Positions 1 through 19,057 of a stretch of 64,000 nt of DNA are shown here, piece by piece (position 1 is the first letter of the stretch; each line of letters opens with the position of its first letter). Position numbers and translations under genes: made by a program. This DNA comes from Syntrophomonadaceae bacterium (GTDB taxonomy: Bacteria > Bacillota > PH28-bin88). The stretch lies in the NCBI GenBank assembly GCA_018333865.1, contig JAGXSE010000056.1, positions 1 through 64,000 on the forward strand. The letters are read 5' to 3'. The notes beneath the pieces are model-generated. The model did not search any database. It saw nothing but the letters and a program-made list of their open reading frames with translations, and was not told the DNA's origin.

Positions 1-25
1 AGAAATATGCCAGTGGAGGTCTGTG

Positions 26-2910: not shown

Positions 2911-2945
2911 TGCAAAAATGCCAGAATAAATGCATCAATGCATGG
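2911..2945. promoter_or_regulatory. probable activator-binding site (TGCA/ATGCAT repeats)
   Basis: Contains TGCAAAAATG followed by two ATGCAT boxes at 2930-2935 and 2938-2943, about 150-190 bases upstream of the sigma-54 promoter, the usual distance of an enhancer for a bacterial enhancer-binding protein. The same AATGCA/TGCATT words recur upstream of the other sigma-54 promoters in the window. The binding protein is inferred to be one of the two activators at 4514 and 15982. Confidence 0.5.
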
Positions 2946-3098: not shown

Positions 3099-4445
3099 TT
3101 AATTAAAAGATGCAGCCTCCAAGGCCCGATCAACAACGTCAAGTCCCATAGACAACTGCTCCTCGGTAATGACAAGAGGAACCAGGAACCGGATCACATT
3201 GCTGAATACGCCGGCACTTAAGGCTAAAACACCGCTGTTAACACAGAATCTGACAACTTTCAAGGCTGCCTCTTTAGCTGGTTCTTTTGTCTGGCGGTCT
3301 TTAACCAGTTCAATAGCAACCATGGCCCCTATACCACGGACATCGCCAATCAACGGGTATTTGTCCTGCATATGTTTAAGCCGCTTAATCATAATTTCTC
3401 CCAATTGATAAGACCGGTCAGCAAGAGAGTCCCGCTCAAGCAGTTCGATTGACTTTAAAGCAGCAACACAAGATACTGGGTTGCCACCAAAAGTGCTCCC
3501 AATTTCGCCCGGGCTAGCTGCATCCATGATCTCGGCCCTGCCCACTACAGCGCTGACAGGCATCCCAGCCGCTAATGACTTGGAGAGAGTCATCATGTCA
3601 GGTTCAATGCCAAAGTGTTCAACGGCAAACATCCTTCCGGTACGGCCAAAGCCCGATTGGACCTCATCGGCAATCAGCAAAATGCCGTACTTCTCACATA
3701 CTGCCTTGAGACCCTTAAGATACTCCGGCGGCGGAGCGATGAACCCCCCCTCGCCCTGAACGGGCTCCATGATTATTGCAGCAACATTTTCATGGGGGCA
3801 TTCTGACAGGAAAAAACGCTCCAGGTAACTAACGCACTGCAGGTCACAGCCCGGATACTGCCGACCGAAAATACAGCGGTAGCAATAAGCTGAAGGGATT
3901 TTGTAAATCTCTGGGGCAAAGGGGCCAAACCCGAACTTATAAGGCTTAACCTTGCTGGTCAGGGTCATAGCCATCAAGGTTCTGCCGTGGAATGCGCATT
4001 CCAACGAAATGATCCCCGTCCGCTTGCTATGCTTTCTGGCCAGCTTGACAGCATTTTCAACTGCTTCGGCCCCGGAATTGGCCAACATCACTTTTTTAGG
4101 AAAGGATCCCGGGGTGATCTGGGTTAGCTTTTCTGCCAGCCGCACATAGGGTTCGTACATAGCCACATGAAAACAGGTATGCAAGAATTTCTCCGCCTGT
4201 TCTTTAACAGCGTCTACAATTTCTTTGGGACTGTGACCCACATTTACAACGCCAATACCAGCCGCAAAATCAATAAAAATATTGCCGTCCACATCTCGCA
4301 CCAAGGCCCCTTTAGCTTCTTCGACAAAAATCGGGGCGTTATTCGCCAGTCCCCGGGACACATACTTCTCTCTTAATGCCAAGAGTTCCTTGGATTTGGG
4401 ACCCGGGATTTCTGTCAGTAACTGCGGCTTCCACTCAAAGTCCAT
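3099..4445 (-). CDS. gabT: class III aminotransferase, GABA/5-aminovalerate type
   Basis: PLP-dependent omega-aminotransferase of 448 residues that moves the amino group of a terminal amino acid such as 4-aminobutyrate or 5-aminovalerate to 2-oxoglutarate, leaving a semialdehyde. The PLP lysine is in MMTLSKSLAAG (Lys289), and LIADEVQSGFGRTG gives the cofactor-contacting Asp and the substrate-side Arg region. Four cysteines in YCYRCIFGRQYPGCDLQC (188, 191, 200, 204) form a cluster typical of prokaryotic GABA/ornithine-type enzymes; GABA transaminases of animals hold an Fe-S cluster at a comparable CxxC, so a metal site is possible. The gene lies between a sigma-54 promoter (4486-4501) and a strong terminator, with the disrupted permease downstream. 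The exact substrate cannot be read from sequence; the glutarate-type genes nearby favour a C5 amino acid. Confidence 0.85.
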   Translation of the reverse strand: MDFEWKPQLLTEIPGPKSKELLALREKYVSRGLANNAPIFVEEAKGALVRDVDGNIFIDFAAGIGVVNVGHSPKEIVDAVKEQAEKFLHTCFHVAMYEPYVRLAEKLTQITPGSFPKKVMLANSGAEAVENAVKLARKHSKRTGIISLECAFHGRTLMAMTLTSKVKPYKFGFGPFAPEIYKIPSAYCYRCIFGRQYPGCDLQCVSYLERFFLSECPHENVAAIIMEPVQGEGGFIAPPPEYLKGLKAVCEKYGILLIADEVQSGFGRTGRMFAVEHFGIEPDMMTLSKSLAAGMPVSAVVGRAEIMDAASPGEIGSTFGGNPVSCVAALKSIELLERDSLADRSYQLGEIMIKRLKHMQDKYPLIGDVRGIGAMVAIELVKDRQTKEPAKEAALKVVRFCVNSGVLALSAGVFSNVIRFLVPLVITEEQLSMGLDVVDRALEAASFN

Positions 4446-4485: not shown

Positions 4486-4501
4486 TGCAAGAAGCATGCC
4501 A
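4486..4501 (-). promoter_or_regulatory. sigma-54 promoter of the aminotransferase gene
   Basis: Minus strand TGGCATGCTTCTTGCA is an exact fit to TGGCAYRN4TTGCW. It lies about 40 bases upstream of the aminotransferase start and just past the stop codon of the activator gene at 4514, so the aminotransferase is controlled apart from its activator. Confidence 0.85.
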
Positions 4502-4513
4502 TTATCGCTTTTA

Positions 4514-6004
4514 TTATAATTGTTCGCTGCAAGAGGTATTTTTATTGGGTTTGCGGCGCCTGACGGACAAATATTTGTTAATTTTCCGTACAGCTGTGGA
4601 TTGATTGATACCTAGAACTTCCGCTATCCGGTAAGTATTCCCGAACTGGTGATAGGCCCTGGCAATCAGCTGTTTTTCCAGCTCTTCGATGGCCCTGCTC
4701 AATGTACAAAGCCCCTGCACAATTACCACCGGCTCTTTTCGTCCGGCTGCCCTGGACAGAAACAGCTCCGGCAAATGGCTAACAGCAATTTCTTTCCGGT
4801 CACTGGTAACCACCAGCCGTTCGATCACATTTTCTAACTCCCGCACATTTCCAGGCCAATCATAATTAATGAAAAGATCCAACACCTCGGGGGCTAATTT
4901 TTTTGTGATGCCGTATTTCTCCTTAAAGCGGCCCAAACACACCTCAATTAAAAAGGGAATGTCTTCTCTCCGGCACCTGAGGGGAGGAACGGTGATGGGC
5001 ACCACATTGAGCCGGTAGTACAGGTCTTCGCGGAACCCGCCCGTAGCTACCATTCTTTGGATATCCTGATTGGTAGCAGCCAGAATCCGCACATTGACAG
5101 GCCGTTCTTTATAGCCCCCTACCCTGACCACCCGCTTCTCCTGAATAACTTGTAATAATTTAGCCTGGAGCGCTAAAGGCAGTTCGGCTATCTCATCCAG
5201 GAACAATGTGCCCTGGTCAGCCATCTCAATGGTGCCCTTTTTTCCTTCTTTTCTAGCGCCGGTAAAAGCTCCCGTCTCATAGCCAAACAGCTCGGACTCC
5301 AGCAGGCTGGCCGGGATAGCGGCGCAATTGACACTGATAAACGGGCCCCGGCACCTGGGACTGTTTTGGTGGATGTGAGCTGCCAGCAAGCCCTTGCCAA
5401 CTCCCGTTTCGCCTAATAAGAGGATTGTCGAGTCAACTTTAGCCACCCGTCTGGCCAGGTCAACCACCTCCCGCATAGCAGGACTCTCGGCGACCATTTG
5501 ACATTTAGCCTGCTGAAGGCTTATTTGGTTTAACCGGGCGATCTGCTGCCGGTAGCTGTCTGCCAATGCCTCCGTGTCAGCCAATCTTTCCTTTAGCACA
5601 TTGATTTCAGTGATATCTCTGGAGTTGATCACTATTCTTTCGATGACCCCATCCCCGTTAAACACAGGATTGCCGGTAACAACCACCTGTCGGCCGCTGC
5701 GGGTATGCTGCAATATGGTCACCCGGCGCTTTTCTTTTAATACCACCTCTGTGCAGGAAGGGAAAAAAAGACCTGCCTTAACTAATTCATCTACCGGTTT
5801 CCCGACCAACTCCTCGGGTTTAACGCCATACAGCCGCTCACAGGCAGCACTTACCCTAAGAGTAACCCTGTTTCCATCGGTAAGGTAGATCTCGTCAAAA
5901 GAAGAATCGAGCATAACCTCTAACTCTTTATTGACCTGCTGAATTTTTTTCAGCTCTTCCTGCAATGCCAAAACCTGCTGCAAGAGGCCTGGCGAATTCG
6001 ACAT
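4514..6004 (-). CDS. PAS-domain sigma-54 enhancer-binding activator 1
   Basis: Cytoplasmic transcription activator of 496 residues that remodels sigma-54 RNA polymerase. Order: short N-terminal coiled coil (7-30), one PAS sensor domain (about 26-135), a linking helix (135-165), an AAA+ domain with Walker A GETGVGKG (198-205), the sigma-54-contacting loop GAFTGA (245-250) and Walker B GTLFLDE (265-271), then a C-terminal helix-turn-helix around HQFGNTYRIAEVLGINQST of the TyrR/Fis kind. There is no receiver domain, so control is through a ligand or redox cue at the PAS domain and not a kinase. Four sigma-54 promoters in the surrounding 13 kb are its natural targets. It closely resembles the activator at 15982 in the AAA+ and DNA-binding parts, so the two may bind the same AATGCA/TGCATT sites while sensing different things. 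Confidence 0.92.
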   Translation of the reverse strand: MSNSPGLLQQVLALQEELKKIQQVNKELEVMLDSSFDEIYLTDGNRVTLRVSAACERLYGVKPEELVGKPVDELVKAGLFFPSCTEVVLKEKRRVTILQHTRSGRQVVVTGNPVFNGDGVIERIVINSRDITEINVLKERLADTEALADSYRQQIARLNQISLQQAKCQMVAESPAMREVVDLARRVAKVDSTILLLGETGVGKGLLAAHIHQNSPRCRGPFISVNCAAIPASLLESELFGYETGAFTGARKEGKKGTIEMADQGTLFLDEIAELPLALQAKLLQVIQEKRVVRVGGYKERPVNVRILAATNQDIQRMVATGGFREDLYYRLNVVPITVPPLRCRREDIPFLIEVCLGRFKEKYGITKKLAPEVLDLFINYDWPGNVRELENVIERLVVTSDRKEIAVSHLPELFLSRAAGRKEPVVIVQGLCTLSRAIEELEKQLIARAYHQFGNTYRIAEVLGINQSTAVRKINKYLSVRRRKPNKNTSCSEQL

Positions 6005-6027
6005 GAATATTACCCCCAGTCCCCGGA

Positions 6028-6311
6028 TTCAACTGGGTCTTGGCTTCAGAGGGGGATTGCTACCCCCACTGAAGCTTAGAGCCAGTTAATATAGTAGCGT
6101 AGCCGCTCTTATCCCGCCGCCTTAATTGGGGACATTCCTGTCCCGTTCAAGAAGCAGGAGGCAAGAGGCAGGAGGCAGGATGAATAAGCGGCTTTTAGTC
6201 CCTAAGCATCTGGCTCTTGCTCTTGCCTCTTGCCTCCTGCATCCTGCGTCTTGAATGGTGTGTCCCCTTTCCTTAGAAGCGGGGGTATTAGAGCGGGTAG
6301 CTATCTATGAT
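6028..6311. repeat. composite palindromic repeat, copy 1 (with nested insert)
   Basis: Fills most of the 330-base gap between the activator and the acyl-CoA synthetase. The left part (6028-6120) and the right end (6270-6311) match, with a few differences, the 138-base copy at 41665-41802. It begins with a hairpin whose arms are CTTCAG+GGGGG and CCCCC+CTGAAG. The outer arms near AGTTAATATAGTAGCG and GGGTAGCTATCTATGATAAT are imperfect inverted repeats of each other. Between them lies about 140 bases absent from copy 2 (described separately). No coding capacity is seen. It resembles a MITE or REP-type element. Confidence 0.75.
6128..6267. repeat. nested inverted repeat inside copy 1
   Basis: A second palindromic unit bounded by GGGGACA and TGTCCCC, then TTCAAGA and TCTTGAA, then purine-rich arms (GCAGGAGGCAAGAGGCAGG against GCCTCTTGCCTCCTGC). 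The copy at 41665 lacks it, so it looks like a later insertion into the outer repeat. GGGGACATTCCTGTCCC-type words are common in Clostridia intergenic repeats. Confidence 0.7.
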
Positions 6312-6334
6312 AATAACTGAGCCGAAAAAGAACC

Positions 6335-8488
6335 TTAACCCTGCTTTTTTGCAATGATCAGGGCATCGGCCAGTTTAACTCCCTGGCCAGCCGGCAACAC
6401 AATCAGCGGATTGATGTCGAGCTCGGCCAGGTCGTCTTTCAGGTCAACAGCCAGGTGGGATACAGCAATCAGGACTTCAGCCAAAGCAGCAGTATCTCCC
6501 TTTTCCCGTCCCCTGAAACCAGTCAGCAAGGGATACCCTTTGATTTCCCTGATCATTGCCATGGCATCCGCTTCGGAAAGAGGTGCCGGCCGCATGGCCA
6601 CATCTTTAAATACTTCCACAAAAATTCCGCCCAGGCCGAACATGATCACCGGGCCAAACACAGGGTCATTATTCACGCCGACAATTACCTCAACCCCTTT
6701 GCCGATCATCTCCTGCACCAGGACCCCCTTTATTTCCGCATCAGGGTTATAGCTTCCGGCATTTTTAACGATGTTGCGGAAAGCCTCCCGCACCTCTTCT
6801 GGAGACGATAGATTAAGCACGACGCCTTTAGCTTCCGTCTTGTGCAATATTTGCGGAGATTCTATCTTCATGACCACCGGGTAGCCAATGCTTTGGGCAA
6901 GGCCTACAGCTTCTTCCTCACTTGCAGCCAGGCCCTCTTCTGGCATCGGCAGCCCGTAGCGCCGTAACACCTTTTTTGCCTCATGCTCGGACAGGGTACC
7001 ACCGGCAGCCAATAGTTCACGAACTCCTTGCAGTTCTTGCTCGCATAGAACCCGCGCCTTTATTTGCCCCTCAAGCGAATTATTCCTGAAGGTTTCTGCG
7101 AAGGAGGCATAGTCCACCAGGGCCTTAATCGCGCGCACTCCCCTGCCTGGAGCTTTAAAATAGGGAACGCCGCCTTCTTTTAAAATCTGGAAACACCGCT
7201 GGTTGGTAATATCCCCGGCTGTCCAGACAATAACTACCGGTTTTATGCTGGTACAGAGCACTTCGACAATATCTCTGGCCACCTGTTCCCCTGCCGGACC
7301 CGTAATCATGGTCTGCACGATCATCAGGCAGTCCACGTTGGGGTCAGCCAGGACAATCTCGACACACCGGCGGAAACCAGTGGGGTCATTAATGACCTGG
7401 GCTGTAATATCAATGGGGTTCCTGGCCGAACCGTAAGCAGGAATAAACTCTTTGATCTGGTTATAACTCTCTTCCAGGAGATCCGGCAGTTCCAGACCCA
7501 GGTCCGCACAGGTATCCGCCGCAATAATTCCGGCACCGCCGGAAGTGCTGATCACGCAAAGACGGTTTCCCTGCGGAAGTTTGCCGGGAGCAAAGACTTT
7601 TGCCATATCCAGCAGTTCTTCAATATCGTTCACCCGGACAATCCCTTTTTGCCGGCAAATAGCCTGGAACGCCGCGTCAGAGCCGGTCAGGGCCGCCGTG
7701 TGGGAAGAAGCAGCCCGGCTGCCGATGGCTGAACGCCCTGCCTTTAACAGAATCATTGGTTTTCCCAACTTCAAAGCCCGGGCCGCTACGGCCTTAAACT
7801 GCCCAGGATTGGGCACTCCCTCTAAATAACCAAGAATAACCCTGGTTGACTCATCTTCCAGCATAAATTCCATGGCATCCAGGGTAGTCAGATCCGCCTC
7901 GTTGCCGGTATTCACGATATATGTAAAGCCAATGCCTGCTTCCTGGGCCTGGTTAAAAGTGGAATACCCCAAGGCACCGCTTTGGGTAGCAAATCCTACC
8001 GGGCCGCAGAGCAGCTTTCCGCTTTCTAAAGCAGCGCTAAAACTGGCGGCTATACTATCTGGCAGGTTTACCATGCCCTGGCAGTTAGGGCCGCAAACCC
8101 TGATTCCACTTGTCCTGGCCAGTTCCTTGATCTGGTTTTGCAGCCGGGCGCCTTCAGCACCTGTTTCGGCAAACCCGGAACTGAAAATAATCACGTTTTT
8201 GATCCCTTTTTCCGCACACTCCGCCAGAGCAGGCAGAACCCGGTGATAGGCTACCGCAAAAAGGGCCAGATCCGGTTGGCCGGGAATAGCCATAATGGAA
8301 GGATAACAGGCCAAGCCGTGCATCTCGCTGTACTTGGGGTTGACTAAATAGACATTGCCCTTGTAGCCATATTCCTTTAAGAACTTCAGCGGCTTGCCGC
8401 TAATACTGGTTAAATCCAAAGAGGCGCCCACGATCGCAATAGAGTCTGGTCGAAAGAATGAAATCAGCTCGTGCTTTTGGTCGTTCAT
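6335..8488 (-). CDS. acyl-CoA synthetase (ADP-forming), fused alpha-beta
   Basis: NDP-forming acid-CoA ligase of about 717 residues: acid + CoA + ATP to acyl-CoA + ADP + phosphate, reversible, in the cytoplasm. The N-terminal CoA-binding Rossmann domain starts with FRPDSIAIVGAS; the succinyl-CoA-synthetase-like domains follow with the phosphohistidine loop in AASSHTAALTGSDAAF; the C-terminal third is an ATP-grasp domain (GYPVVMKIESPQILHKTEAKGV, then a metal-binding LDINPLIV). I place the start at ATG 8488, where GGAGGAACAAGGC precedes it, not at the longer open frame reaching 8590. It is the last gene of the TAXI-TRAP transporter operon, which implies activation of the imported acid. In anaerobes this enzyme family also runs backwards to make ATP. 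Substrate not readable; glutarate is the favoured guess from context. Confidence 0.88.
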   Translation of the reverse strand: MNDQKHELISFFRPDSIAIVGASLDLTSISGKPLKFLKEYGYKGNVYLVNPKYSEMHGLACYPSIMAIPGQPDLALFAVAYHRVLPALAECAEKGIKNVIIFSSGFAETGAEGARLQNQIKELARTSGIRVCGPNCQGMVNLPDSIAASFSAALESGKLLCGPVGFATQSGALGYSTFNQAQEAGIGFTYIVNTGNEADLTTLDAMEFMLEDESTRVILGYLEGVPNPGQFKAVAARALKLGKPMILLKAGRSAIGSRAASSHTAALTGSDAAFQAICRQKGIVRVNDIEELLDMAKVFAPGKLPQGNRLCVISTSGGAGIIAADTCADLGLELPDLLEESYNQIKEFIPAYGSARNPIDITAQVINDPTGFRRCVEIVLADPNVDCLMIVQTMITGPAGEQVARDIVEVLCTSIKPVVIVWTAGDITNQRCFQILKEGGVPYFKAPGRGVRAIKALVDYASFAETFRNNSLEGQIKARVLCEQELQGVRELLAAGGTLSEHEAKKVLRRYGLPMPEEGLAASEEEAVGLAQSIGYPVVMKIESPQILHKTEAKGVVLNLSSPEEVREAFRNIVKNAGSYNPDAEIKGVLVQEMIGKGVEVIVGVNNDPVFGPVIMFGLGGIFVEVFKDVAMRPAPLSEADAMAMIREIKGYPLLTGFRGREKGDTAALAEVLIAVSHLAVDLKDDLAELDINPLIVLPAGQGVKLADALIIAKKQG

Positions 8489-8623
8489 GCCTTGTTCCTC
8501 CATATTCAGCATAGGGCAGCAATCCACCGCAAAAAGCCTAGACCCAGGTGAACTGATTATTGTCCATGCAAGTTTGATTCCAGGGGCCAAATTGCTTTCC
8601 TTTACGCCTTTAATTTATGTTTT

Positions 8624-10618
8624 TCAGGAAGATGACGGGAGTTTGCCTGATTTTGTTGCAAAACCCTTTTTCATCTCCGACCTGATCCCGACCCTCTGCC
8701 GCAGATAAATCAGGGCAAAGACCCCTACACCAACAATATCGGTATAAAGGCCTGGTTTAATCAGGGCTAATGCTCCCGCACCCAGGAACAAAGTCTCGGG
8801 CCAAGTCAGGGGTTTCAATAAGTAGCGGGCACAGGCGGCCCCCAGTCCAATCACTCCAATGCTTGCAGTTACTGCGGCGCCAAAAATTTGAATTGCTGTA
8901 CCCTGCTGCATCACCAGTTGGGGAGCATAGACGAACATAAACGGCACAATAAAGGCAGCAATTCCTAACCGCACAGCCGTAAATCCAACCCGGTTCGGAT
9001 CTGCGCCGGCGATCCCTGCTCCGGCAAAGGCAGCCAGGGCCACTGGCGGGGTGATCGCAGACAGCACACCGAAATAGAAGGTAAAGAGGTGGGCAGCAAT
9101 TGGTTCAATTCCCAACCTCACCAGGGCCGGCGCAGCCATGGTAGCCGCCACAATATACACTGCTGTTGTAGGCATGCCCATGCCCAAGATTAAACAGGCG
9201 ATGGCCGCCAACACCAAGGTTAAGAACAGGTTCCCACCCGCCATGCTAACAATAATATCTCCCAGCTTGAGGCCAAACCCGGTCAAGGCGCTTACCCCAA
9301 CAATAAAGCCAACCACCGCACAGGCAATAACCACCGGAATAGCCCCGCGGGCGCCGTTTTCCAGTGCTGCCAAAAGACCGCGCAAGTTTAACCGGGTGGC
9401 AGGGCGCAAATAGCTTGTCAAAACCGTAGCCACGATCCCGTAAAAGGCAGCAAAGGTAGGAGTAAATCCCTGTACCAACAGATATACAATTAATAGCAGC
9501 GGTAACACCATATGGCCCCGCTCCAGGAGGACCTGTCTGACGTTTGGCAATTCTTCCTGAGTCAGGCCCCGAAGGCCGGTTTTAACCGCCTCCAGGTGCA
9601 CGCCAGCATAACAGGCCAGGTAAAAGAGGAGAGCCGGGATCAAAGCGGCAAACATAATGTCCCGATAAGGCACATTGAGGATCTCGGCCATGATAAAGGC
9701 GGCCGCCCCCATTACCGGCGGCATGATCTGCCCGCCAGTAGAGGCAACGGCCTCTGTCGCCCCGGCAAAATGAGGACGATAGCCAACGCTTTTCATCAGT
9801 GGAATTGTAAAGGCTCCCGTTGTGACAACATTGGCAACGGCACTGCCGCTAATAGTACCCATCAGACCGCTGGCAACTACAGCCACCTTGGCTGGTCCAC
9901 CCGGGGAACGTCCAGCTGCGGCCATAGAAATTTCATTAATAAATCTGGACATCCCGGTCTGACCAAGAAAAGCTCCAAATAAAATAAACAAAAAGATAAA
10001 GGTGGTCGAAACCCCGATAGCTACACCATAGATACCATCCAGTGAAAGGTAAAACACTTCCAGCATTCGGGGTATGCTGTAGCCAGTATGACCCAGATCA
10101 CCAGGGATATACTTGCCAAGATAGGCGTAGGCCACGAAGACCAAAGCCAGGCAGGGCAGAATGGGACCAATGCTGCGCCTGCCGCCTTCTAAAACCAAAA
10201 GACAGGCCAGAACAGCAAAAAAGTAGTCGATATTATTGGGCAAGGTGCCGCCTCCCATTAAACCGGTGTATCGCCACAACAAATAGCCTGTAACAGCAAT
10301 GCTGCCAAAGACGAGCAGGAGATCTCCGGTGCTTGGCCGGTCTAATCGGGAGGAAAGGCCGGCGGGATAAAGAAGAAAGATCAGGACGAGGATAAAAGAT
10401 AAATGAAAAGCACGTGCCGATATTTCCGGCAGAACGCCGACACTGGCCAACCAGAGGTGGAAGACCGACATGCAGATTGCTACTGCTGCAACAAGCCTGC
10501 CCCAGACGGTGTTTGGCAGGTATTTGCGGAACCGGGATTCAACGTCGTATTTCTCAATCACCCTATCGATTTCAGGTGTCTTTTCTTCCGGGGCAGCGGC
10601 TGGACGATTGTCTTTCAT
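8624..10618 (-). CDS. TRAP transporter, fused 4TM/12TM permease (TAXI type)
   Basis: Integral membrane permease of 664 residues that uses an ion gradient to import a solute delivered by a TAXI binding protein. The small (DctQ-like) and large (DctM-like) subunits are fused, as is normal for TAXI systems. The large part carries GTISGSAVANVVTTGAFTIPLM and LGMGMPTTAVYIV, hallmark loops of the TRAP large subunit, and about 16 hydrophobic segments are visible. The start is ATG 10618 with AGGAGTGACCGT upstream; the upstream in-frame extension lacks support. It follows the binding-protein gene after a hairpin-rich gap and precedes the acyl-CoA synthetase. TAXI systems are known for dicarboxylates, glutamate and sialic acid-like acids. 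Confidence 0.92.
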   Translation of the reverse strand: MKDNRPAAAPEEKTPEIDRVIEKYDVESRFRKYLPNTVWGRLVAAVAICMSVFHLWLASVGVLPEISARAFHLSFILVLIFLLYPAGLSSRLDRPSTGDLLLVFGSIAVTGYLLWRYTGLMGGGTLPNNIDYFFAVLACLLVLEGGRRSIGPILPCLALVFVAYAYLGKYIPGDLGHTGYSIPRMLEVFYLSLDGIYGVAIGVSTTFIFLFILFGAFLGQTGMSRFINEISMAAAGRSPGGPAKVAVVASGLMGTISGSAVANVVTTGAFTIPLMKSVGYRPHFAGATEAVASTGGQIMPPVMGAAAFIMAEILNVPYRDIMFAALIPALLFYLACYAGVHLEAVKTGLRGLTQEELPNVRQVLLERGHMVLPLLLIVYLLVQGFTPTFAAFYGIVATVLTSYLRPATRLNLRGLLAALENGARGAIPVVIACAVVGFIVGVSALTGFGLKLGDIIVSMAGGNLFLTLVLAAIACLILGMGMPTTAVYIVAATMAAPALVRLGIEPIAAHLFTFYFGVLSAITPPVALAAFAGAGIAGADPNRVGFTAVRLGIAAFIVPFMFVYAPQLVMQQGTAIQIFGAAVTASIGVIGLGAACARYLLKPLTWPETLFLGAGALALIKPGLYTDIVGVGVFALIYLRQRVGIRSEMKKGFATKSGKLPSSS

Positions 10619-10679
10619 ACGGTCACTCCTCTTTGATGCAGATTGCTCGTAAAACAATTTGTATTGCGGACATTCCTTT

Positions 10680-10718
10680 AAAAAAAGGGGGCAGGCCAGG
10701 GACATTGGGCCCGCCCCC
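10680..10718 (-). terminator. attenuating terminator between binding protein and permease
   Basis: Inverted repeat 10687-10718 (GGGGGC...GCCCCC with inner GGCC pairs), followed on the minus strand by a run of seven T. It lies inside the operon, between the binding-protein stop (10869) and the permease start (10618), so partial read-through would give more binding protein than permease. Confidence 0.75.
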
Positions 10719-10752
10719 TATCTAATAATTAAATTTCAGGGCAGACCCCCAC

Positions 10753-10831
10753 GCCGCCTATGGCGGCACCATCAGAGGATGAAAAAGTCAGTGCAACAGA
10801 CTTTAATCAGGTACTGGCGTAGCCAGTACCT
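10753..10831. repeat. two further hairpins in the same gap
   Basis: Perfect inverted repeats GCCGCC-tat-GGCGGC (10753-10767) and AGGTACTGGC-gta-GCCAGTACCT (10809-10831). Both lie 3' to the binding-protein gene on its transcript and may protect it from 3' exonucleases. Confidence 0.7.
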
Positions 10832-10868
10832 ACGAGTTCATCTTACTTCTCACATCCCACCTCTATTT

Positions 10869-12194
10869 TCAGGGCAGCCTAAGGCCCCTTTCCGCAAAGT
10901 ATCTGGCCGCTCCGGGATGCAGGGGAATCCCCATGTGTCCGCGCAAGGCAGCCTGCAGGGTGATATCCCTGGCTGCGGAATGAACTGCCAACAAGTCTGC
11001 ATGATGCTCGAAAACGGCTCTGGTTAAGAAATAAGCTACGTCATCAGGCATATTAGCTGTGGTCAATAACAGGTTAGCCTGGCCAACCGTCCGCACCGGG
11101 TCAGTCTGTCCCCTGTAGGTATTGGCCGGGATGGTAAATGGAAAATAATGATTGAATCTGCGTGTAAGCTCGTCGATCCTGCTCTGATCCAGCGAAATGA
11201 AGTTCACATCCGTTGTGGTAGCCAAATCTAACAAGGCGCTAACAGGGATACCGGCATTAATCAAGAGGCCGTCGCTCTGTCCGTTTCTGATTAACTCTGC
11301 CGCCGCAGTAAAGCCAACATAGTCCATTCTGACATGCTGGCGATCCCGGTAATCAATCCCGTGAACCCCAAAAACCTCGCGGGTATTCAGTTCTGTGCCG
11401 CTGCCCGCCGCTCCGGGCGCAAACCGCTTACCGAAGAAGTCGTTAACGTTTCTCACCCCAGACCCGGCCCGGGCCACAATTTGGACTACGTTGGGGTAAA
11501 GGGCCGTCAAGACGCGCAGGTCTTTATTAGGATTGCCGGCAAAACGGTCTGTACCGTTATAAGCATGAGCTGCCACCTGGTTCATGGTAAAGGCAACATT
11601 GACATCGCCACGCCTTAGTAACAGCATGTTCTGGGCACTTCCCTCAGTTGCCTGGGCAGAAGCGCGGATATTGGGAACCCTGTTTTGAAACATGCTGGCC
11701 ATGCCATTGCCCAGAATAAAATACACGCCGCCAGTTGTAGCTGTGGCGATATTGACATCAAACCGCCTGGCCAGCGGCGGAACAGGAGCCAGAGCCGGTG
11801 CTGGTGCTGGCGCCGGGGCTGGGGCCGGAGTCACAGCGACTGGGGCCGGTGCCGGAGCTGGTTTAGGAGCTGGCGCAGGTGCGGGAGCCGGTGCCGGTTT
11901 AGGAGCTGGCGCCGGGGCTGGTGCAGGCGCCGGAGCCGGTGCCGGAGCCGGTGCCGGAGCCGGTGCCGGTGCCGGAGCTGGTGCCGGAGCTGGTGCCGGA
12001 GCTGGTGCCGGAGCTGGTGCCGGAGTTGGGGCCGGTGCCGGAGTTGGGGCAGGTGCCGGAGCAGGTGCCGGTGCCGGAGCCGGTTGGGGCGGCTGAGTTG
12101 CCTGTTGCGTGCCACAGCCACCAAGGACCATTGTGAATGCAATAATTACTGTTAACAGGAAAACGCCTAATTTATGCCGCCTGAATCTCAACAT
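10869..12194 (-). CDS. TAXI-family TRAP solute-binding lipoprotein with Pro/Ala linker
   Basis: Extracytoplasmic solute receptor of 441 residues. A lipoprotein signal peptide (residues 1-27, lipobox LGGC with Cys27) is followed by a Pro/Ala-rich tether from about 34 to 143 made almost wholly of PA dipeptides with rare Lys, Thr and Val. The binding domain starts at RRFDVNIATATTGGVYFILG, the TAXI signature, and runs to the C terminus. The tether would hold the receptor well away from the membrane surface; ordinary TAXI proteins have a short linker. It heads the operon with permease and acyl-CoA synthetase and has its own sigma-54 promoter (12336-12351). The tether is coded by GC-rich short repeats, so its length may vary between strains. 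Ligand unknown; an organic acid is inferred. Confidence 0.9.
   Translation of the reverse strand: MLRFRRHKLGVFLLTVIIAFTMVLGGCGTQQATQPPQPAPAPAPAPAPAPTPAPAPTPAPAPAPAPAPAPAPAPAPAPAPAPAPAPAPAPAPAPAPAPKPAPAPAPAPAPKPAPAPAPVAVTPAPAPAPAPAPALAPVPPLARRFDVNIATATTGGVYFILGNGMASMFQNRVPNIRASAQATEGSAQNMLLLRRGDVNVAFTMNQVAAHAYNGTDRFAGNPNKDLRVLTALYPNVVQIVARAGSGVRNVNDFFGKRFAPGAAGSGTELNTREVFGVHGIDYRDRQHVRMDYVGFTAAAELIRNGQSDGLLINAGIPVSALLDLATTTDVNFISLDQSRIDELTRRFNHYFPFTIPANTYRGQTDPVRTVGQANLLLTTANMPDDVAYFLTRAVFEHHADLLAVHSAARDITLQAALRGHMGIPLHPGAARYFAERGLRLP
11769..12095. repeat. in-frame GC-rich minisatellite coding the Pro/Ala tether
   Basis: Tandem 6- and 12-base units of the type GCCGGAGCTGGT on plus, read as PAPA on minus. 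Units are degenerate at the third base, so the repeat has been kept for its protein product. All units are multiples of 3, so slippage changes length without frameshift. Confidence 0.85.
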
Positions 12195-12335
12195 TGTTGG
12201 CCTCCTTTTATTAAGTTAATTTAGTCGCGCAGCCTTTTTCTAACTTCACCTGGCCATTTCTATGAAAGTGGATAGCAGCCCTTGACCACCTCCCTGAATT
12301 AAAATCGATAGCTCAGTGCATATTGAAAATACTTA

Positions 12336-12351
12336 TGCAATTTTCATGCCT
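12336..12351 (-). promoter_or_regulatory. sigma-54 promoter of the TRAP operon
   Basis: Minus strand AGGCATGAAAATTGCA fits the -24/-12 consensus apart from the first T. It lies about 140 bases upstream of the binding-protein start, leaving a long AT-rich leader. Confidence 0.75.
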
Positions 12352-12469
12352 TTTGAATATTTATAAATATTTAATTTATTTTAAATTTTTTGAAATAAAT
12401 AATGCATTCCCACATTATTCAGCCTTGGTGGCATAAAAAATCGGCAGCATGCCAACAAGATTAGTAAAC

Positions 12470-12500
12470 TGCATTTTTGCATTGGCAATGCTAAAATGCA
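12470..12500. promoter_or_regulatory. 31-base palindrome, probable activator-binding site
   Basis: Near-perfect inverted repeat: TGCATTTT then GCATTG, a central G, CAATGC and AAAATGCA. It lies about 120-150 bases upstream of the TRAP sigma-54 promoter and contains the AATGCA/TGCATT words found upstream of the other sigma-54 promoters. Its edge overlaps the terminator of the biotin-carrier gene. Confidence 0.6.
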
Positions 12501-12533
12501 GGGCAGAGAATGCACTCCACTCTCCGCCCTGCA
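12491..12533 (-). terminator. probable terminator after the biotin-carrier gene
   Basis: Arms TGCAGGGC (12497-12504) and GCCCTGCA (12526-12533), followed on minus by a short ATTTTA. The T run is weak. It separates the dehydrogenase/carboxyltransferase/biotin operon from the TRAP operon. Confidence 0.55.
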
Positions 12534-12568
12534 GCATTAAAGATAGCAATTAAGCCTATTGCATAAGA

Positions 12569-12781
12569 CTATTCCAATACCATCAACACATCGCCGGCCT
12601 TGACGACATCGCCTTCAGCGGCTTTCAGGGCTTTAACAACACCGGAATCATCCGCATAAATTTCAACGTGCATTTTCATTGCCTCCAAAATGGCAACTAC
12701 ATCGTCTACCTGGACAGTGTCGCCGACTCCAACTTCGAACTTAAGCAGCTTTCCCACCATTGGTGCAGTTATTTCTGGCAT
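12569..12781 (-). CDS. biotin carboxyl carrier protein (biotinyl domain only)
   Basis: Small acyl-free biotin carrier of 70 residues, just one lipoyl/biotinyl barrel. The biotin attachment site is EAMKM with Lys36, and conserved glycines (VGVGDTV, AEGDV, AGDVLMVLE) bracket it. It shuttles CO2 on biotin between a carboxyltransferase and either a biotin carboxylase or a membrane decarboxylase. It lacks the long Ala/Pro linker and N-terminal domain usual in decarboxylase gamma subunits. It lies 114 bases downstream of the carboxyltransferase gene in the same direction, so the two are very likely partners. The third partner (carboxylase or Na+-pumping beta subunit) is not in this window. Confidence 0.92.
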   Translation of the reverse strand: MPEITAPMVGKLLKFEVGVGDTVQVDDVVAILEAMKMHVEIYADDSGVVKALKAAEGDVVKAGDVLMVLE

Positions 12782-12895
12782 GAAAAAGAATCCTCCTTAC
12801 TTATTATTTTTTGCCATTGATTTTAATATGTCCCAAAGCTTTTCCCTAATTCTAGCACGGACAGGCAAATAGGTCAACTTTACCATCGGCTGACC

Positions 12896-14440
12896 TTACA
12901 GGTTAATATTGGAGAACTTCCGCCACGGCCTGGCCACATCTTTATTCTCAAGCATATCCAATGTCCTGTTAATCATCATCCTGGTGTCTTCCGGGAGAAT
13001 GATATCGTCGATATAGCCCCGCTCAGCCCCCCGGTAGGGGTTTTCATACAGATCCCGGTATTCCTGGATTCTGGCAGCCTTAACTTCTTCCGGATTCCCG
13101 GCATTCTTGATTTCTTTAGCAAAAATAACACTGGCAGCAGTTTCGGCACCCACAATGCTGACCTGTGCCTCCGGCCAGGCGTAGACGATATCAGCCCCGG
13201 TGTCCTTGCAGCACATGCCCAAATATGCCCCGGCAAATGATTTCCGGAGGATAACGGTTACCTTGGGGACAGTGGCGTCAATGTAAGCATAAAGCATTTT
13301 AGCACCATGGCGGAGAATGCCTTTCCACTCCTCATTGGAGCCAATCATGAAGGCCGGGGTATCATGCAGGTTGACCAGGGAGATATTGAACAGATCGCAG
13401 AAACGCACAAACCTGGCCACCTTATCGGCAGCGTCACAGGTGATTACAGCGCCTATCTTGTTGGGCTGGCTGGCTACAACCCCCGTCGGACGGCCGCCCA
13501 TCCGGGCAAAACCGATAATCACGTTCGGGGCAAAATCCTTCATGATTTCAAAAAAATACCCATTATCAACAATCTTATAAATCACCTGGCGCATATCATA
13601 GGGAATGTGGCCAGCCTCGGGGATCATCCGGTTAAGCTCGGGAACTTTCCGCCACGGGTCATCCCCTGTTTCAATTCTGGGGGGCTTTTGCTTGTTGTTG
13701 TCGGGCAGGAAGCTTAACAGCTCCTTGGTCTTATCCAGGCAGTCCTGGTCATCTTCTGTAACCACATGGGTGCAGCCGGATTTAACCGCATGGGCATTGA
13801 CTCCGCACAGCTTTTCCAGTGTAATCTCTTCTCCCAGCTGGGTCTTGACAAAAGCCGGTCCGGCAATGCCCATAAAACCGGTTTTTCTGTTTTGGAACAC
13901 AAAATCCTGCATCACCGGGTGATAGGCCTGGCCGCCAAGGCAGGGGCCCAGCAGCAAAGCGACTTGCGGAATGATGCCAGAGGCCAGAATCTGGGAGCGA
14001 AACAACCAGGCGTAAGCCTCCAGGGTATCCATACCCTCCTGCAACCTGGCGCCGCCAGAGTCGTTCATGCCCACAAAGGGGATCCCCATCTCTTTAGCCA
14101 TATCGATAGCCTGGGAGAATTTCTTACCATGGTACTCCCCAAAAGTTCCCGCCATGGCTGTATAGTCTTCTGCGCCAGCCATCACCAGCCGCCCGTTGAC
14201 CCGGCCATAACCAACCACTACGCCCTCAGCCGGCACTTCTCTTTTGTCCATGCCAAAAGCAGTGGTCCGGTGCTTGATGTGCATACCAATCTCCACAAAG
14301 GTGCCAGGATCAAAGAAGTATTCAATCCGTTCCCGGGCGGTCATCTTGCCGGCTTTATGCTGCTGCTCCACCGCCTGCGGGCCCCCCATCGCCCTGATCC
14401 GCTCCTTTTCTTTCAATAACTGTTCGTAACGATCCATCAA
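12896..14440 (-). CDS. acyl-CoA carboxyltransferase / decarboxylase alpha subunit
   Basis: Carboxyltransferase of 514 residues with both crotonase-like halves, moving a carboxyl group between an acyl-CoA and carrier-bound biotin. The N-terminal half shows TARERIEYFFDPGTFVEIG and MNDSGGARLQEGMD; the second half shows GRPTGVVASQP and the oxyanion-forming RKSFAGAYLGMCCK. Family members include propionyl-CoA carboxylase beta, methylmalonyl-CoA decarboxylase alpha and glutaconyl-CoA decarboxylase alpha. Its neighbours are a biotin carrier downstream and a glutaryl-CoA-dehydrogenase-like protein 49 bases upstream, which favours glutaconyl-CoA decarboxylation to crotonyl-CoA. The length matches methylmalonyl/propionyl-type proteins better than the roughly 580-residue glutaconyl enzyme of clostridia, so the substrate remains open. 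Confidence 0.85.
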   Translation of the reverse strand: MMDRYEQLLKEKERIRAMGGPQAVEQQHKAGKMTARERIEYFFDPGTFVEIGMHIKHRTTAFGMDKREVPAEGVVVGYGRVNGRLVMAGAEDYTAMAGTFGEYHGKKFSQAIDMAKEMGIPFVGMNDSGGARLQEGMDTLEAYAWLFRSQILASGIIPQVALLLGPCLGGQAYHPVMQDFVFQNRKTGFMGIAGPAFVKTQLGEEITLEKLCGVNAHAVKSGCTHVVTEDDQDCLDKTKELLSFLPDNNKQKPPRIETGDDPWRKVPELNRMIPEAGHIPYDMRQVIYKIVDNGYFFEIMKDFAPNVIIGFARMGGRPTGVVASQPNKIGAVITCDAADKVARFVRFCDLFNISLVNLHDTPAFMIGSNEEWKGILRHGAKMLYAYIDATVPKVTVILRKSFAGAYLGMCCKDTGADIVYAWPEAQVSIVGAETAASVIFAKEIKNAGNPEEVKAARIQEYRDLYENPYRGAERGYIDDIILPEDTRMMINRTLDMLENKDVARPWRKFSNINL

Positions 14441-14489
14441 AAGAAAACCTCCTTTTCAATCAATTTACAATGGTAAAATACAATGGCTG

Positions 14490-15641
14490 TTACCTGTTTG
14501 CCTTCCTGTAACCCAAGGCATCGTTAGCAATTATTAGCTTCTGGATAATTGAAGAACCCTCAACAATTTGATATGACTTGGCATCGCGGTAATACCTGGC
14601 CACCGGGTATTCCTCGGAATAGCCATAAGCACCAAGGATCTTCATGGCGAAGTCAGCGCATTTATTGGCTGTCTCAGCGACAAAGTATTTGCCGATGGAA
14701 GTTTCCCGGGTATTGTTCATGCCCTGGTCCTTTTGCCATGCTGCCCGGTAAACCAACATCCTGGCGGCCTCAATATCAACAACCATCTGGGCTATCATAT
14801 CCTGAATCATTTGGAACTTGCCGATTTCCTGCCCGAACTGCTTGCGCTGATTAGCATATTCCAATACCGCATCCAAACAGCCATGGGCCACACCCAAAGC
14901 ACCAGCGGCACAGCCCAGACGGGTGTCGTCTAGCTGAGACATGCAGATCTTAAAGCCTTCACCTTCTTTACCCAATAAGGCGTCTTTAGGTACGCGACAA
15001 TTATCAAAGGTCACTTCTCCGGTAGGCGCAGCCCATGTGCCCAGCTTCTCAGTAATAGGAGCGACACTAATCCCCGGCACATTCATTTCAACAATGAACG
15101 CCGATATACCCTTCACCTTCTGAGAAGGATCCGTATAAGCATAGACAAGGGCCAGGTCTGCCACCTGCGCATTGGAAATCCAGGTTTTGCAGCCGTTAAA
15201 CACGTAGTGGTCCCCATCCCGGATAGCCGTAGCCTTCATAGCAGCAACATCAGAGCCGGCATCTGGCTCAGTAATAGCAAAACAGCCCATCTGCTCACCG
15301 CTGCAAAGGCCAGGCAGGTATTTGCGCTTTTGTTCCTCGGAGCCATATTTATAGATAGCCAGGGCCGGCCCCATTTGCATGTTGAATGGCAACCGCATGC
15401 TGCTGTGTACCCTGGCCATCTGCTCAGCGATGACGGTAGCAGCTAAAAATCCCATTCCGCTTCCGCCATACTCTTCAGGAATCTGGCACCCCAAAAAGCC
15501 CAGCTCGCCCATCTTGTCCACGATATCCCTACGGAAACGGTGTTCCTTATCGTCCTTATCTACTGTAGGAGCAATCTCGTTCAGGGCAAAATCCCGGGCC
15601 AGTTTTTGAATGACAACCAGGTCTTCGCTTAATTCGAACAT
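14490..15641 (-). CDS. acyl-CoA dehydrogenase, glutaryl-CoA dehydrogenase-like
   Basis: FAD flavoprotein of 383 residues that introduces the alpha-beta double bond into an acyl-CoA. The FAD/substrate signatures CFAITEPDAGSDVAAM and the C-terminal RQFGQEIGKFQMIQDMIAQM are present; the catalytic base is Glu361 in YQIVEGSSIIQ. The ending ILGAYGYSEEYPVARYYRDA through LGYRKANR looks, from memory, very like the non-decarboxylating glutaryl-CoA dehydrogenase of Desulfococcus, which stops at glutaconyl-CoA and leaves decarboxylation to a biotin enzyme. That is exactly what the two genes downstream could do. It is first in its operon, driven by a perfect sigma-54 promoter at 15687-15702. Other short-chain or cyclic acyl-CoA substrates are possible. 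Confidence 0.88.
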   Translation of the reverse strand: MFELSEDLVVIQKLARDFALNEIAPTVDKDDKEHRFRRDIVDKMGELGFLGCQIPEEYGGSGMGFLAATVIAEQMARVHSSMRLPFNMQMGPALAIYKYGSEEQKRKYLPGLCSGEQMGCFAITEPDAGSDVAAMKATAIRDGDHYVFNGCKTWISNAQVADLALVYAYTDPSQKVKGISAFIVEMNVPGISVAPITEKLGTWAAPTGEVTFDNCRVPKDALLGKEGEGFKICMSQLDDTRLGCAAGALGVAHGCLDAVLEYANQRKQFGQEIGKFQMIQDMIAQMVVDIEAARMLVYRAAWQKDQGMNNTRETSIGKYFVAETANKCADFAMKILGAYGYSEEYPVARYYRDAKSYQIVEGSSIIQKLIIANDALGYRKANR

Positions 15642-15686
15642 TTTTCTCCCCCCTGTATAAAGTTAGACTTCCACGTCATCTACCTA

Positions 15687-15702
15687 AGCAATTTCTGTGC
15701 CA
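15687..15702 (-). promoter_or_regulatory. sigma-54 promoter of the dehydrogenase operon
   Basis: Minus strand TGGCACAGAAATTGCT matches TGGCAYRN4TTGCW exactly, 46 bases upstream of the dehydrogenase start. Confidence 0.88.
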
Positions 15703-15876
15703 AGCTTAAAGCCCCCAGGAAGAAGGCCAAAAAGCGTAAAGAAGGGCTAAAACAACCTGTTATCCTGGTATTATGGCCCATTCAACCCCAATTTAATGCA
15801 CAAATACATTGACCAGAAGCGGTTCCGGCTTATTCGCCATAAATCTTCAGGAACAAGAAGAAAGCCCCGACCAGCA

Positions 15877-15986
15877 CAATGCATTATTGCATTGTTAAGG
15901 CCAGGGCATATTGCCCAACAATGTAGTTATTTTAAGAGTAGCGCCATGCAATGAAAAAATGCATTACCTGATGCAATTGCATCAGG
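15877..15986. promoter_or_regulatory. cluster of AATGCA/TGCATT palindromes (probable enhancer)
   Basis: Contains CAATGCA-ttat-TGCATTG (15877-15894), a TGCAATG/TGCATT pair (about 15947-15965) and a perfect 20-base palindrome CCTGATGCAATTGCATCAGG (15967-15986) that overlaps the last codons of the activator gene. They lie 175-300 bases upstream of the dehydrogenase sigma-54 promoter. The last palindrome may also act in ending the activator transcript, though it has no T run. Confidence 0.6.
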
Positions 15987-17772
15987 TTCTTTTCATCTTC
16001 CGGACCACAGTAGACTGGTTAACACCCAAAACAGCCGCCGCCTTATAAGTACTGCCCAACTCGCTGACAGCACGGCTGATTAATTGACGCTCCAGTTCGG
16101 AAACCGCCTTTTTTAGAGGCAAAATCCCCCGCACAATCACCGAGGGGTTTTCGCTTTTTACAGGCCTTGGCAAGAGATTAGCGGGAACATGTTCAGATGT
16201 TACCATTGTATCAGGGGTGGTAACCATCAGCCGTTCGACGATATTTTCTAACTCCCTCACGTTTCCAGGCCAATCATAGTTAAGAAAAATATCAAATACT
16301 TCCGGCGCAAATTCTTTGGTGATGTTATAGGCTTTGCCATATTTAGCGATAAATGCATAAACCAACGGGATAATTTCCTCCCGCCGCATCCTCAGGGGCG
16401 GAATGAACAAGGGCACCACATTCAGCCTGAAATACAGGTCTTCGCGAAACAAGCCCCGATGGACCATTTCCTCCAAATTATGATTTGTCGCAGCCAAAAT
16501 GCGCACATTCACTGTTCGCGGCTTGTTACCCCCCACCCGCACAATTTCCCTGTCCTGGATGGCCCGCAAAAGTTTCACCTGCAAAGACAGGGGCAGGTCA
16601 CCAATTTCATCCAGGAAAAGGGTACCGTTATGGGCCAACTCGAACATGCCTAGCTTGCCTTCCTTGCTGGCGCCGGTAAAAGCCCCGGGTTCATAACCAA
16701 ACAGCTCCGACTCCAACAGGTTTTCCGGGATGGCTCCGCAATTTATCTTAATAAAGGGGCCTTCATTCCGCAAGCTCTCCGTATGGATCAACTTTGCCAC
16801 AACTTCCTTGCCTACACCAGATTCCCCCAAAATTAAAATGGTAGAATCCACTTGGGCCACCCGCATAACCATAACCAACAGGTCTTGCATCCGCGGGGAA
16901 TTAAACACGATTCCTCTTTGCTCGACCATCCGGCTGCGCATTTGCGTCAGTTCAGACCGGTAACGTTCGCTCAGTTCCCTGGTTTCCTCGAGCTGCTGGC
17001 GCAGATGGCTTAGCTCAGTCAGATCCCGGACATTGATCACAACCCTGGCGATGCCGTTTTTGGCATCCCGCACCGGGCTGCCAGTAACTAACAGGTACTT
17101 GGTATTGGTTACACCTCCCTTTACTCTTTCCATCAATGTCACGGCCTTGCCCTGCCGCAAGACCGCATCAACTACTGATTTGGAATAATGGCCTTCATCG
17201 ACAAGCTGCCGCATGGATTTACCTTGAATATTCTCAGATTTGATGCCGGTAATCCGTTCATGAGCATCGTTAACCCGAATCACCTGTCCTTCCGCATCGG
17301 TGATAATTATTCCGTCGTAAGAGGAATCGATGATGGCCTGCAGCTCGCGGTTCAGCTCTTTTACCACCTGAAGTTCTTCCGAGATAGATTCCAGTTCAGA
17401 AATATCCTGAAAAACACCGATGGCTCCAATCACTTCCCCGTTTTCAACAATGGGGCTGCGGTTAGTAATATAAACACGGTTACCAGATGTATAGCGGACA
17501 GAAAATTTGTACAGCTCACCTCGTCCAGTCGCCAGAACATCCAAAAGGCCCAGGGGAATAATCACCTGCGACAGGTGTTTGCCCAGGGCCTCGGATTTTT
17601 TGCGTCTGGTTATCTCTTCAGCCGCATGGTTAAAAATTGTTACTACTCCGTGTTTATCAATGGCTATAATACCATTATTGGCAGCATCCAAGATTACTTC
17701 CATGCGGTGCAGGAAATTGTCTATATTCCGTTGACAGGAGCAGGTAATTTCCTCCATTACGTCACGCACCAT
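15982..17772 (-). CDS. double-PAS sigma-54 enhancer-binding activator 2
   Basis: Sigma-54 activator with two PAS domains (about 25-127 and 140-250), a coiled linker, an AAA+ ATPase (Walker A GESGVGKE, loop GAFTGA, Walker B GTLFLDE) and a C-terminal helix-turn-helix (GSTYKAAAVLGVNQST) of TyrR/Fis type. The open frame extends to a GTG at 17784, but the ATG at 17772 has a GAGGTGAG ribosome site in front of it, so I use that start (596 residues). It has no receiver domain, so a small molecule or redox signal is the likely input. It lies directly upstream of the dehydrogenase/carboxyltransferase/biotin-carrier operon and the enhancer-like palindromes overlap its 3' end. It is paralogous to the activator at 4514. 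Confidence 0.92.
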   Translation of the reverse strand: MVRDVMEEITCSCQRNIDNFLHRMEVILDAANNGIIAIDKHGVVTIFNHAAEEITRRKKSEALGKHLSQVIIPLGLLDVLATGRGELYKFSVRYTSGNRVYITNRSPIVENGEVIGAIGVFQDISELESISEELQVVKELNRELQAIIDSSYDGIIITDAEGQVIRVNDAHERITGIKSENIQGKSMRQLVDEGHYSKSVVDAVLRQGKAVTLMERVKGGVTNTKYLLVTGSPVRDAKNGIARVVINVRDLTELSHLRQQLEETRELSERYRSELTQMRSRMVEQRGIVFNSPRMQDLLVMVMRVAQVDSTILILGESGVGKEVVAKLIHTESLRNEGPFIKINCGAIPENLLESELFGYEPGAFTGASKEGKLGMFELAHNGTLFLDEIGDLPLSLQVKLLRAIQDREIVRVGGNKPRTVNVRILAATNHNLEEMVHRGLFREDLYFRLNVVPLFIPPLRMRREEIIPLVYAFIAKYGKAYNITKEFAPEVFDIFLNYDWPGNVRELENIVERLMVTTPDTMVTSEHVPANLLPRPVKSENPSVIVRGILPLKKAVSELERQLISRAVSELGSTYKAAAVLGVNQSTVVRKMKRT

Positions 17773-17853
17773 CAGCCGTCTCACCTCTAAATACTTGCTA
17801 ATGCAATCTTACATTATTTCTGTGGTGTTGAAAAGAGGAAACCCAAGCGGTCA

Positions 17854-19012: not shown

Positions 19013-19057
19013 TTACCTTCCTCCTCTTGCAAGAATTCCAAACATTGAATTTGCCAA

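Follow-up and report, generated by a model that had tools for sequence, protein, structure and literature searches.

A sigma-54-controlled gene island probably devoted to glutarate import and breakdown in a putative sulfate-reducing Firmicute

Introduction

Anaerobic breakdown of glutarate via glutaconyl-CoA is established biochemistry. Non-decarboxylating glutaryl-CoA dehydrogenases pass glutaconyl-CoA to a biotin-dependent, Na+-pumping decarboxylase, and the combination of such a dehydrogenase (Acd) with this decarboxylase is standard in strict anaerobes. An island of ten genes in the genome of a Syntrophomonadaceae bacterium (GCA_018333865.1; G000, 3.2 Mb in 71 contigs) raises the question of which acid the Acd pathway serves there, how this acid would enter the cell and be activated, and what controls the genes. 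The island lies in the window analysed here, the first 64 kb of contig JAGXSE010000056.1 (C56). All ten genes are on the minus strand and encode, in order of transcription, activator A, Acd, a carboxyltransferase, a biotin carrier, a TAXI solute-binding protein, a TRAP permease, an ADP-forming acyl-CoA synthetase, activator B, an aminotransferase and an amino-acid permease (Table 1). The gene content named in a first-pass annotation of the sequence was recovered throughout: two PAS activators, both of the Sigma54 type and both with GAFTGA; the TAXI transporter and the synthetase, with their families matched; and the set of Acd, carboxyltransferase and biotin carrier. Our reading, which we consider probable, is that these genes form a sigma-54-controlled module for glutarate, possibly also for 5-aminovalerate via the aminotransferase, in a sulfate-reducing Firmicute.

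Dehydrogenase

Acd scored 531.5 bits against the NCBIfam model NF045552, over the equivalog cut-off of 470, and its best PDB match was the Desulfococcus enzyme 3mpi (428.8 bits; runner-up, 343). In the alignment, Val360 precedes the catalytic Glu361 (VEG, as in 3mpi), and Val occupies this position in every listed ortholog of the clade, whereas 1siq, 4w9u, 4l1f and 1jqi have Tyr instead (YEG); the human and Brucella glutaryl-CoA dehydrogenases and the butyryl/short-chain enzymes carry Tyr before the catalytic Glu. The work on 3mpi reportedly placed Val beside the catalytic base in non-decarboxylating enzymes and Tyr in decarboxylating ones. Arg83, the distal carboxylate contact, aligns with Arg of human glutaryl-CoA dehydrogenase and of 3mpi, has no equivalent in butyryl enzymes, and is conserved in most, not all, Acd orthologs. 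In the tree, the window protein, its relatives and 3mpi formed one 40-row clade (support 100/99), separate from butyryl-CoA and decarboxylating glutaryl-CoA dehydrogenases; the exact place of 3mpi inside the clade is unsure because it forms a long branch.

By its sequence, the dehydrogenase is thus of the non-decarboxylating glutaryl-CoA type, and it would turn glutaryl-CoA into glutaconyl-CoA without release of CO2. The first-pass annotation had proposed this type and had named the substrate-carboxylate positions and possible clustering with butyryl-CoA enzymes as points to examine; both examinations agree with it, since Val360 and Arg83 are those of the non-decarboxylating type and the protein groups with the Desulfococcus enzyme. 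The Acd of Desulfococcus multivorans (GDH_Des, 3mpi/3mpj) shares the family model, the catalytic Glu, Val for Tyr and the distal-carboxylate Arg. The window Acd differs from it in standing beside TAXI and an ADP-forming synthetase, in its predicted sigma-54 control, and in its genome, where no BamA-type hydrolase exceeds the cut-off.

Gene context in related loci

Forty-three related loci, some cut by contig ends, were surveyed. A carboxyltransferase was encoded near Acd in 23 of them (17 MmdA-like, 6 GcdA-like), a biotin carrier in 20, a PAS-sigma-54 activator in 15, a Na+-pump beta subunit in 12, and TAXI together with TRAP in 6. Two clades far from each other show this linkage of TAXI and TRAP genes to Acd (L022, L078, L024 and L079; L041 and L049). 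CoA-activating enzymes, found in 11 loci, were of three unrelated kinds: class III transferase, GctAB-like transferase and ADP-forming synthetase. The synthetases of L059 and L080 are 53-54% identical to that of the window, and the highest-scoring model for the class III transferases was succinate-glutarate CoA-transferase, with 510, 481 and 320 bits against a cut-off of 750 that none of them reached. The carboxyltransferase of L059 is a true GcdA (779 bits to 1pix). In Desulfacinum hydrothermale (L049), genes for IclR, a class III transferase, beta subunit, carrier, Acd, carboxyltransferase, TAXI and TRAP occupy one locus, and L079 holds a near-complete single-locus module.

Because different activating enzymes and different carboxyltransferases occupy the same two slots, a pathway from a free acid via glutaryl-CoA and glutaconyl-CoA is indicated; this is the best evidence for that route, and the reading of the island as a C5 dicarboxylate module was in this way backed by gene context in relatives. 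Glutaryl-CoA might instead come from lysine, 2-oxoadipate or aromatics, with TAXI and the synthetase serving an unrelated, co-regulated acid. Benzoyl-CoA degradation is the setting from which Acd is best known (PMC5852087, PMC2996986), a BamA-type hydrolase is present in the relatives G001 and G002, and in some Acd relatives the genes for transport and activation are missing. No BamA-type hydrolase exceeded the cut-off in G000, however, which makes it unlikely that glutaryl-CoA stems from benzoyl-CoA, and the benzoyl-CoA pathway was rejected for this genome. TAXI and TRAP are tied to Acd in two distant clades, and the three CoA-activation solutions beside Acd point to a free acid as the substrate; we regard these other sources as unlikely.

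Carboxyltransferase and decarboxylase subunits

A close match to GcdA was not obtained for the island carboxyltransferase, which scored 85-98 bits against 1pix and 3gf3 (98 to 3gf3) versus 547 against 1x0u, which is MmdA/PccB-like. In a 22-sequence tree, a split with support of 100/99 separated the Acd-linked carboxyltransferases from methylmalonyl-CoA decarboxylase (MMD) and propionyl-CoA carboxylase (PCC) sequences, among them the methylmalonyl-CoA decarboxylase of this genome. Seven fixed residues (E91, A97, Q171, A193, I366, A403 and Y465) are common to the Acd-linked proteins and differ in the MMD/PCC rows compared. The island protein, 47% identical to the genome's own copy on contig C37, thus shares its superfamily with MmdA and the PCC beta subunit but falls in a separate, supported, Acd-linked clade with fixed residues of its own. 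Judged by clade and context, this MmdA-like clade, distinct from GcdA, quite likely acts on glutaconyl-CoA. Methylmalonyl-CoA decarboxylase was rejected as the identity of the island enzyme, a separate copy being present in the C37 cluster with mutase, epimerase and succinyl-CoA synthetase.

The genome contains two PF01039 carboxyltransferases, one biotin carboxylase (C67:46041) and two decarboxylase beta subunits (C37:84076 and C71:26582). The beta subunit, for which the first-pass annotation had suggested a genome search, is accordingly encoded twice, both times outside the island. The island encodes the single recognisable biotin carrier of the genome, as judged by Pfam and AMKM motif searches; the remaining Biotin_lipoyl matches were lipoyl E2 and efflux-type membrane-fusion proteins, and other AMKM motifs were rejected as hidden carriers, none lying within a biotinyl domain. 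A distinct set of acetyl-CoA carboxylase genes was not recognised in G000.

The C37 methylmalonyl-CoA cluster (L005:8071-11038) encodes a carboxyltransferase, a 53-aa gamma-like protein and a beta subunit, with no carrier gene; in the equivalent cluster of the relative G002, a 150-aa carrier is encoded between the genes for the carboxyltransferase and the beta subunit. As the island is without a pump and the C37 cluster without a carrier, the simplest reading is that the two share these parts; a further carrier missed by the assembly is a possible alternative. The C37 beta subunit is 58-61% and the C71 one 46-49% identical to Acd-linked beta subunits. The latter was rejected as a dedicated partner, given its lower identity, its tricarboxylate-type transporter neighbour and the lack of a palindrome-promoter pair. 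At that locus (L006:5187-9892), genes for the beta subunit and for a small membrane protein come immediately after the transporter gene, sugar kinase-like and S-Me-THD-like genes lie upstream, and no carboxyltransferase gene is nearby.

The carboxyltransferase and carrier of a putative biotin-dependent, Na+-pumping decarboxylase are therefore encoded in the island and the beta subunit elsewhere in the genome. The logic of the three components is shared with known enzymes of this kind; here, in contrast, the alpha subunit comes from another carboxyltransferase branch and the subunits are scattered over the genome. Na+ pumping by an unlinked beta subunit is moderately favoured. A wider arrangement, in which every biotin-dependent carboxyl transfer of the cell relies on the one island-encoded carrier (glutaconyl-CoA, the C37 methylmalonyl-CoA decarboxylase and perhaps the lone biotin carboxylase) and both decarboxylases share the beta subunits, appears doubtful.

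A further possibility is that carboxyltransferase and carrier, together with the C67 biotin carboxylase, make up an acyl-CoA carboxylase (for malonyl- or methylmalonyl-CoA) and merely neighbour Acd. With one biotin carboxylase, two carboxyltransferases and one carrier in the genome, a carboxylase would need to draw on these. Yet the carboxyltransferase groups with the Acd-linked ones and differs from the MMD/PCC rows at the seven fixed residues, a beta subunit adjoins the cassette in relatives, and G039 carries the cassette with no biotin carboxylase match, which makes a carboxylase improbable.

Uptake and activation of the acid

The TAXI binding protein and the fused permease both exceeded their family cut-offs, as expected of a TAXI-type TRAP transporter. 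In VcGluP, the amino group of glutamate is bound by Gln93 and Glu125 (PMC11574862). Met and Asn stand at these positions in the window protein and in all six Acd-linked TAXI proteins examined, so that the Gln93/Glu125 pair of a glutamate-specific TAXI protein was not found in the window TAXI, whereas the equivalents of Tyr45, Ser75 and Gly156 are retained in all seven. VcGluP and TtGluBP share the fold family and the Tyr45 and Ser75 equivalents with the window protein and differ from the Acd-linked proteins at Gln93 and Glu125. These residues would suit an acid that lacks an amino group, for example glutarate, and do not by themselves identify it; glutarate is the somewhat likelier import.

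The synthetase gene follows the transporter genes after a 33-bp gap in one operon. Its product carries the domains of the ADP-forming acyl-CoA synthetase superfamily, and its best PDB match was 8wzu, a 4-hydroxybutyrate-CoA ligase [ADP-forming] (457 bits). We suppose that it works toward glutaryl-CoA, which would be a cheap way to add coenzyme A. ADP-forming acyl-CoA synthetases frequently operate in the ATP-making direction, and Syntrophus operates related steps in reverse; crotonyl-CoA might accordingly be carboxylated and reduced to glutaryl-CoA, from which the synthetase would yield ATP and glutarate would be released. The sharing of an operon with a TAXI-TRAP importer, the CoA transferases that take the synthetase slot in relatives, and the electron sink available to a cell that is probably a sulfate reducer all speak against such a reversal, which we consider very unlikely.

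Transcriptional control

The -24/-12 promoters were scored with a hand-weighted consensus across the 64-kb window, Markov-shuffled sequence serving as the null, and genome-wide promoter scans were pattern searches. The four sites at the island ranked first, second, third and tied fourth in the window, where seven sites scored at least 20 compared with 1.8 in shuffled sequence. All four promoters of the first-pass annotation are thus present, although the one at 2763 falls outside the interval 4486-17772 that it had given for the island.

A 12-bp palindrome, TGCAWNNWTGCA, was found 118-177 bp upstream of three of the four promoters (Acd, TAXI and permease). In a slightly narrower form, it occurred three times in the window, always at these promoters, against 0.2 expected. 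The palindrome was defined on the window, and the relatives and the whole-genome count served as an independent test. The genome contains 14 copies, versus one for the reversed control pattern, and only the three in the island pair with a -24/-12 site (score at least 19.5, distance 60-320 bp, right orientation). In relatives, a -24/-12 site also precedes acd in L022, L078, L024, L027, L028, L060 and L045, and a palindrome-promoter pair does so in L022, L078, L024, L028 and L060. These five loci have a nearby PAS-sigma-54 gene whose product is 59-73% identical to activator A, and L022 has a further pair before its aminotransferase gene.

The island thus holds three complete predicted sets of promoter, upstream candidate site and enhancer-binding activator, as in a sigma-54 regulon. 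Activators A and B are 49% identical, and it is probably activator A that controls the promoters of Acd, TAXI and the permease.

Table 1. Coordinates of island features in the window.
Feature	Position	Strand	Basis
PAS-PAS sigma-54 activator A	15982..17784	-	Pfam Sigma54_activat, PAS, HTH_50; nearest NCBIfam PrdR, below cut-off
Palindrome TGCATTATTGCA, candidate activator site, Acd promoter	15880..15891	.	pattern and pairing
-24/-12 promoter TGGCACAGAAATTGCT of Acd operon	15687..15702	-	score 21.5, best in window
Non-decarboxylating glutaryl-CoA dehydrogenase (Acd)	14490..15641	-	NF045552, 3mpi match, Val360/Glu361/Arg83, tree
Carboxyltransferase, MmdA/PccB-like, proposed glutaconyl-CoA decarboxylase alpha	12896..14440	-	PF01039, 542 bits; Acd-linked clade
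Biotin carrier, 70 aa, EAMKM	12569..12781	-	only recognisable carrier in genome
Palindrome TGCATTTTTGCA, candidate activator site, TAXI promoter	12470..12481	.	pattern and pairing
-24/-12 promoter AGGCATGAAAATTGCA of TAXI operon	12336..12351	-	score 20.0
TAXI solute-binding protein	10869..12194	-	TIGR02122, 298.6 bits (cut-off 84.35)
Fused TRAP permease	8624..10705	-	TIGR02123, 719.3 bits (cut-off 320.65)
ADP-forming (NDP-forming) acyl-CoA synthetase, alpha-beta fusion	6335..8590	-	Pfam CoA_binding_2, Succ_CoA_lig, Ligase_CoA_2, ATP-grasp_5
PAS sigma-54 activator B	4514..6004	-	family match; comparison with activator A
-24/-12 promoter TGGCATGCTTCTTGCA of aminotransferase	4486..4501	-	score 21.0; no paired palindrome here
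Class III aminotransferase, GABA/5-aminovalerate type	3099..4445	-	TIGR00700, 562 bits (cut-off 507)
Palindrome TGCATCAATGCA, candidate activator site, permease promoter	2931..2942	.	pattern and pairing
-24/-12 promoter TGGCATTAATCTTGCA of permease	2748..2763	-	score 20.5
Amino-acid permease, 5' part only	1761..2615	-	broken at IS1634-type transposase

Aminotransferase and permease

The first-pass annotation had connected the aminotransferase and the permease with 5-aminovalerate. This held in part: the aminotransferase appears to be co-regulated in one relative (L022), but the permease is broken. It keeps about 255 of about 478 residues and is 62% identical to residues 4-255 of the 478-aa permease of L060; the rest was sought elsewhere in the genome and assembly and was not found. 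The gene is cut by an IS1634-family transposase at the contig end (window 1-1771), and a search for terminal inverted repeats spanning the transposon found none. In L022, the aminotransferase gene is followed by one for an aldehyde:ferredoxin oxidoreductase, which could convert glutarate semialdehyde to glutarate. In G004 (L080:2463-8935), an aldehyde:ferredoxin oxidoreductase match, an ADP-forming synthetase and a PAS-sigma-54 activator precede Acd, an order that hints at oxidation of the aldehyde to the acid before CoA is added. With the permease broken here, 5-aminovalerate is proposed as a second substrate only tentatively.

Island borders and host

The island is bordered on the right by minE/minD and on the left by the IS1634-type transposase and the contig end. 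It starts beside minE of an mreB-mreD-PBP-minCDE cluster (window 17917-24555), and in the relative G001 (L078:2382-4929) its end adjoins a RodA/FtsW gene. Because these genes border it, the island may lie within a cell-shape gene cluster. An imperfect purine-rich inverted repeat (GCAGGAGGCAAGAGGCAAGA) lies between the synthetase and activator B genes (window 6140-6270). As dsrA is present on the same contig, the host is probably a sulfate-reducing Firmicute. The nearest named records were Clostridiales bacterium PH28_bin88 (Acd 80% identical) and Desulfotomaculum-type Peptococcaceae.

Discussion

In the proposed pathway, a C5 dicarboxylate would enter via TAXI-TRAP and be converted to glutaryl-CoA by the ADP-forming synthetase. 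Acd, assigned to its type by sequence, would oxidise this to glutaconyl-CoA with the CO2 retained. The MmdA-like carboxyltransferase, to judge from its clade and context, would then load the carboxyl group onto the biotin of the small carrier, leaving crotonyl-CoA. Release of CO2 and pumping of Na+ would fall to a membrane beta subunit from another locus, most likely that of C37. A PAS activator would turn the module on from the TGCAWNNWTGCA palindromes, recognised by pattern and promoter pairing, to which it presumably binds in response to a ligand.

Several points weigh against this proposal. Because the carboxyltransferase is far from GcdA, its sequence does not fix its substrate. The island is without a beta subunit, and of the two in the genome one belongs to the methylmalonyl-CoA cluster and the other adjoins a tricarboxylate-type transporter. 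The synthetase reached no named NCBIfam equivalog among those for acetate, 4-hydroxybutyrate and 3-hydroxypropionate (550/1300, 530/1200, 458/1300 and 432/567 bits, score/cut-off). Loss of Gln93 is weak evidence, since this residue is conserved in only 54% of TAXI sequences (PMC11574862). Lastly, the palindrome was defined on the window before it was tested elsewhere, and 7 loose pairings occurred in 1.04 Mb of other loci.

Pairs of acd and gcd genes are known. An acd-gcdBC contig has been described (PMC5852087), and in Geobacter bemidjiensis acd adjoins gcdA (Gbem_1452-1453; PMC2996986). As in the island, the dehydrogenase gene there adjoins a carboxyltransferase gene and the beta subunit gene is not adjacent. 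The Geobacter protein, however, is a true GcdA in a benzoate route, and other pump subunits were not found there (PMC2996986), whereas the window carboxyltransferase is MmdA-like and the beta subunits are encoded on other contigs. In the searched literature, we found no locus in which acd-gcd stand together with TAXI and an ADP-forming synthetase under sigma-54 control, and no paper naming the transporter, the activating enzyme and the regulator of anaerobic glutarate breakdown. The view of the first-pass annotation that no such locus had been described therefore stands for the full combination and not for the acd-gcd pairs. Searches of this literature on 5-aminovalerate with glutaryl-CoA in sulfate reducers found nothing, and those on glutarate growth of Desulfotomaculum or Desulfacinum gave no useful match.

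The reactions are known, and what is new is this version of the gene arrangement. Both the gene set and the binding-site signature of the island lend themselves to tests in relatives that are in culture, for instance Desulfacinum hydrothermale and Desulfotruncus alcoholivorax. The island suggests a glutaconyl-CoA role for a clade of MmdA-like carboxyltransferases, next to a slot occupied by three unrelated CoA-activating enzymes, and raises the possibility that a biotin carrier and a pump are shared between C5-acid and propionate metabolism.

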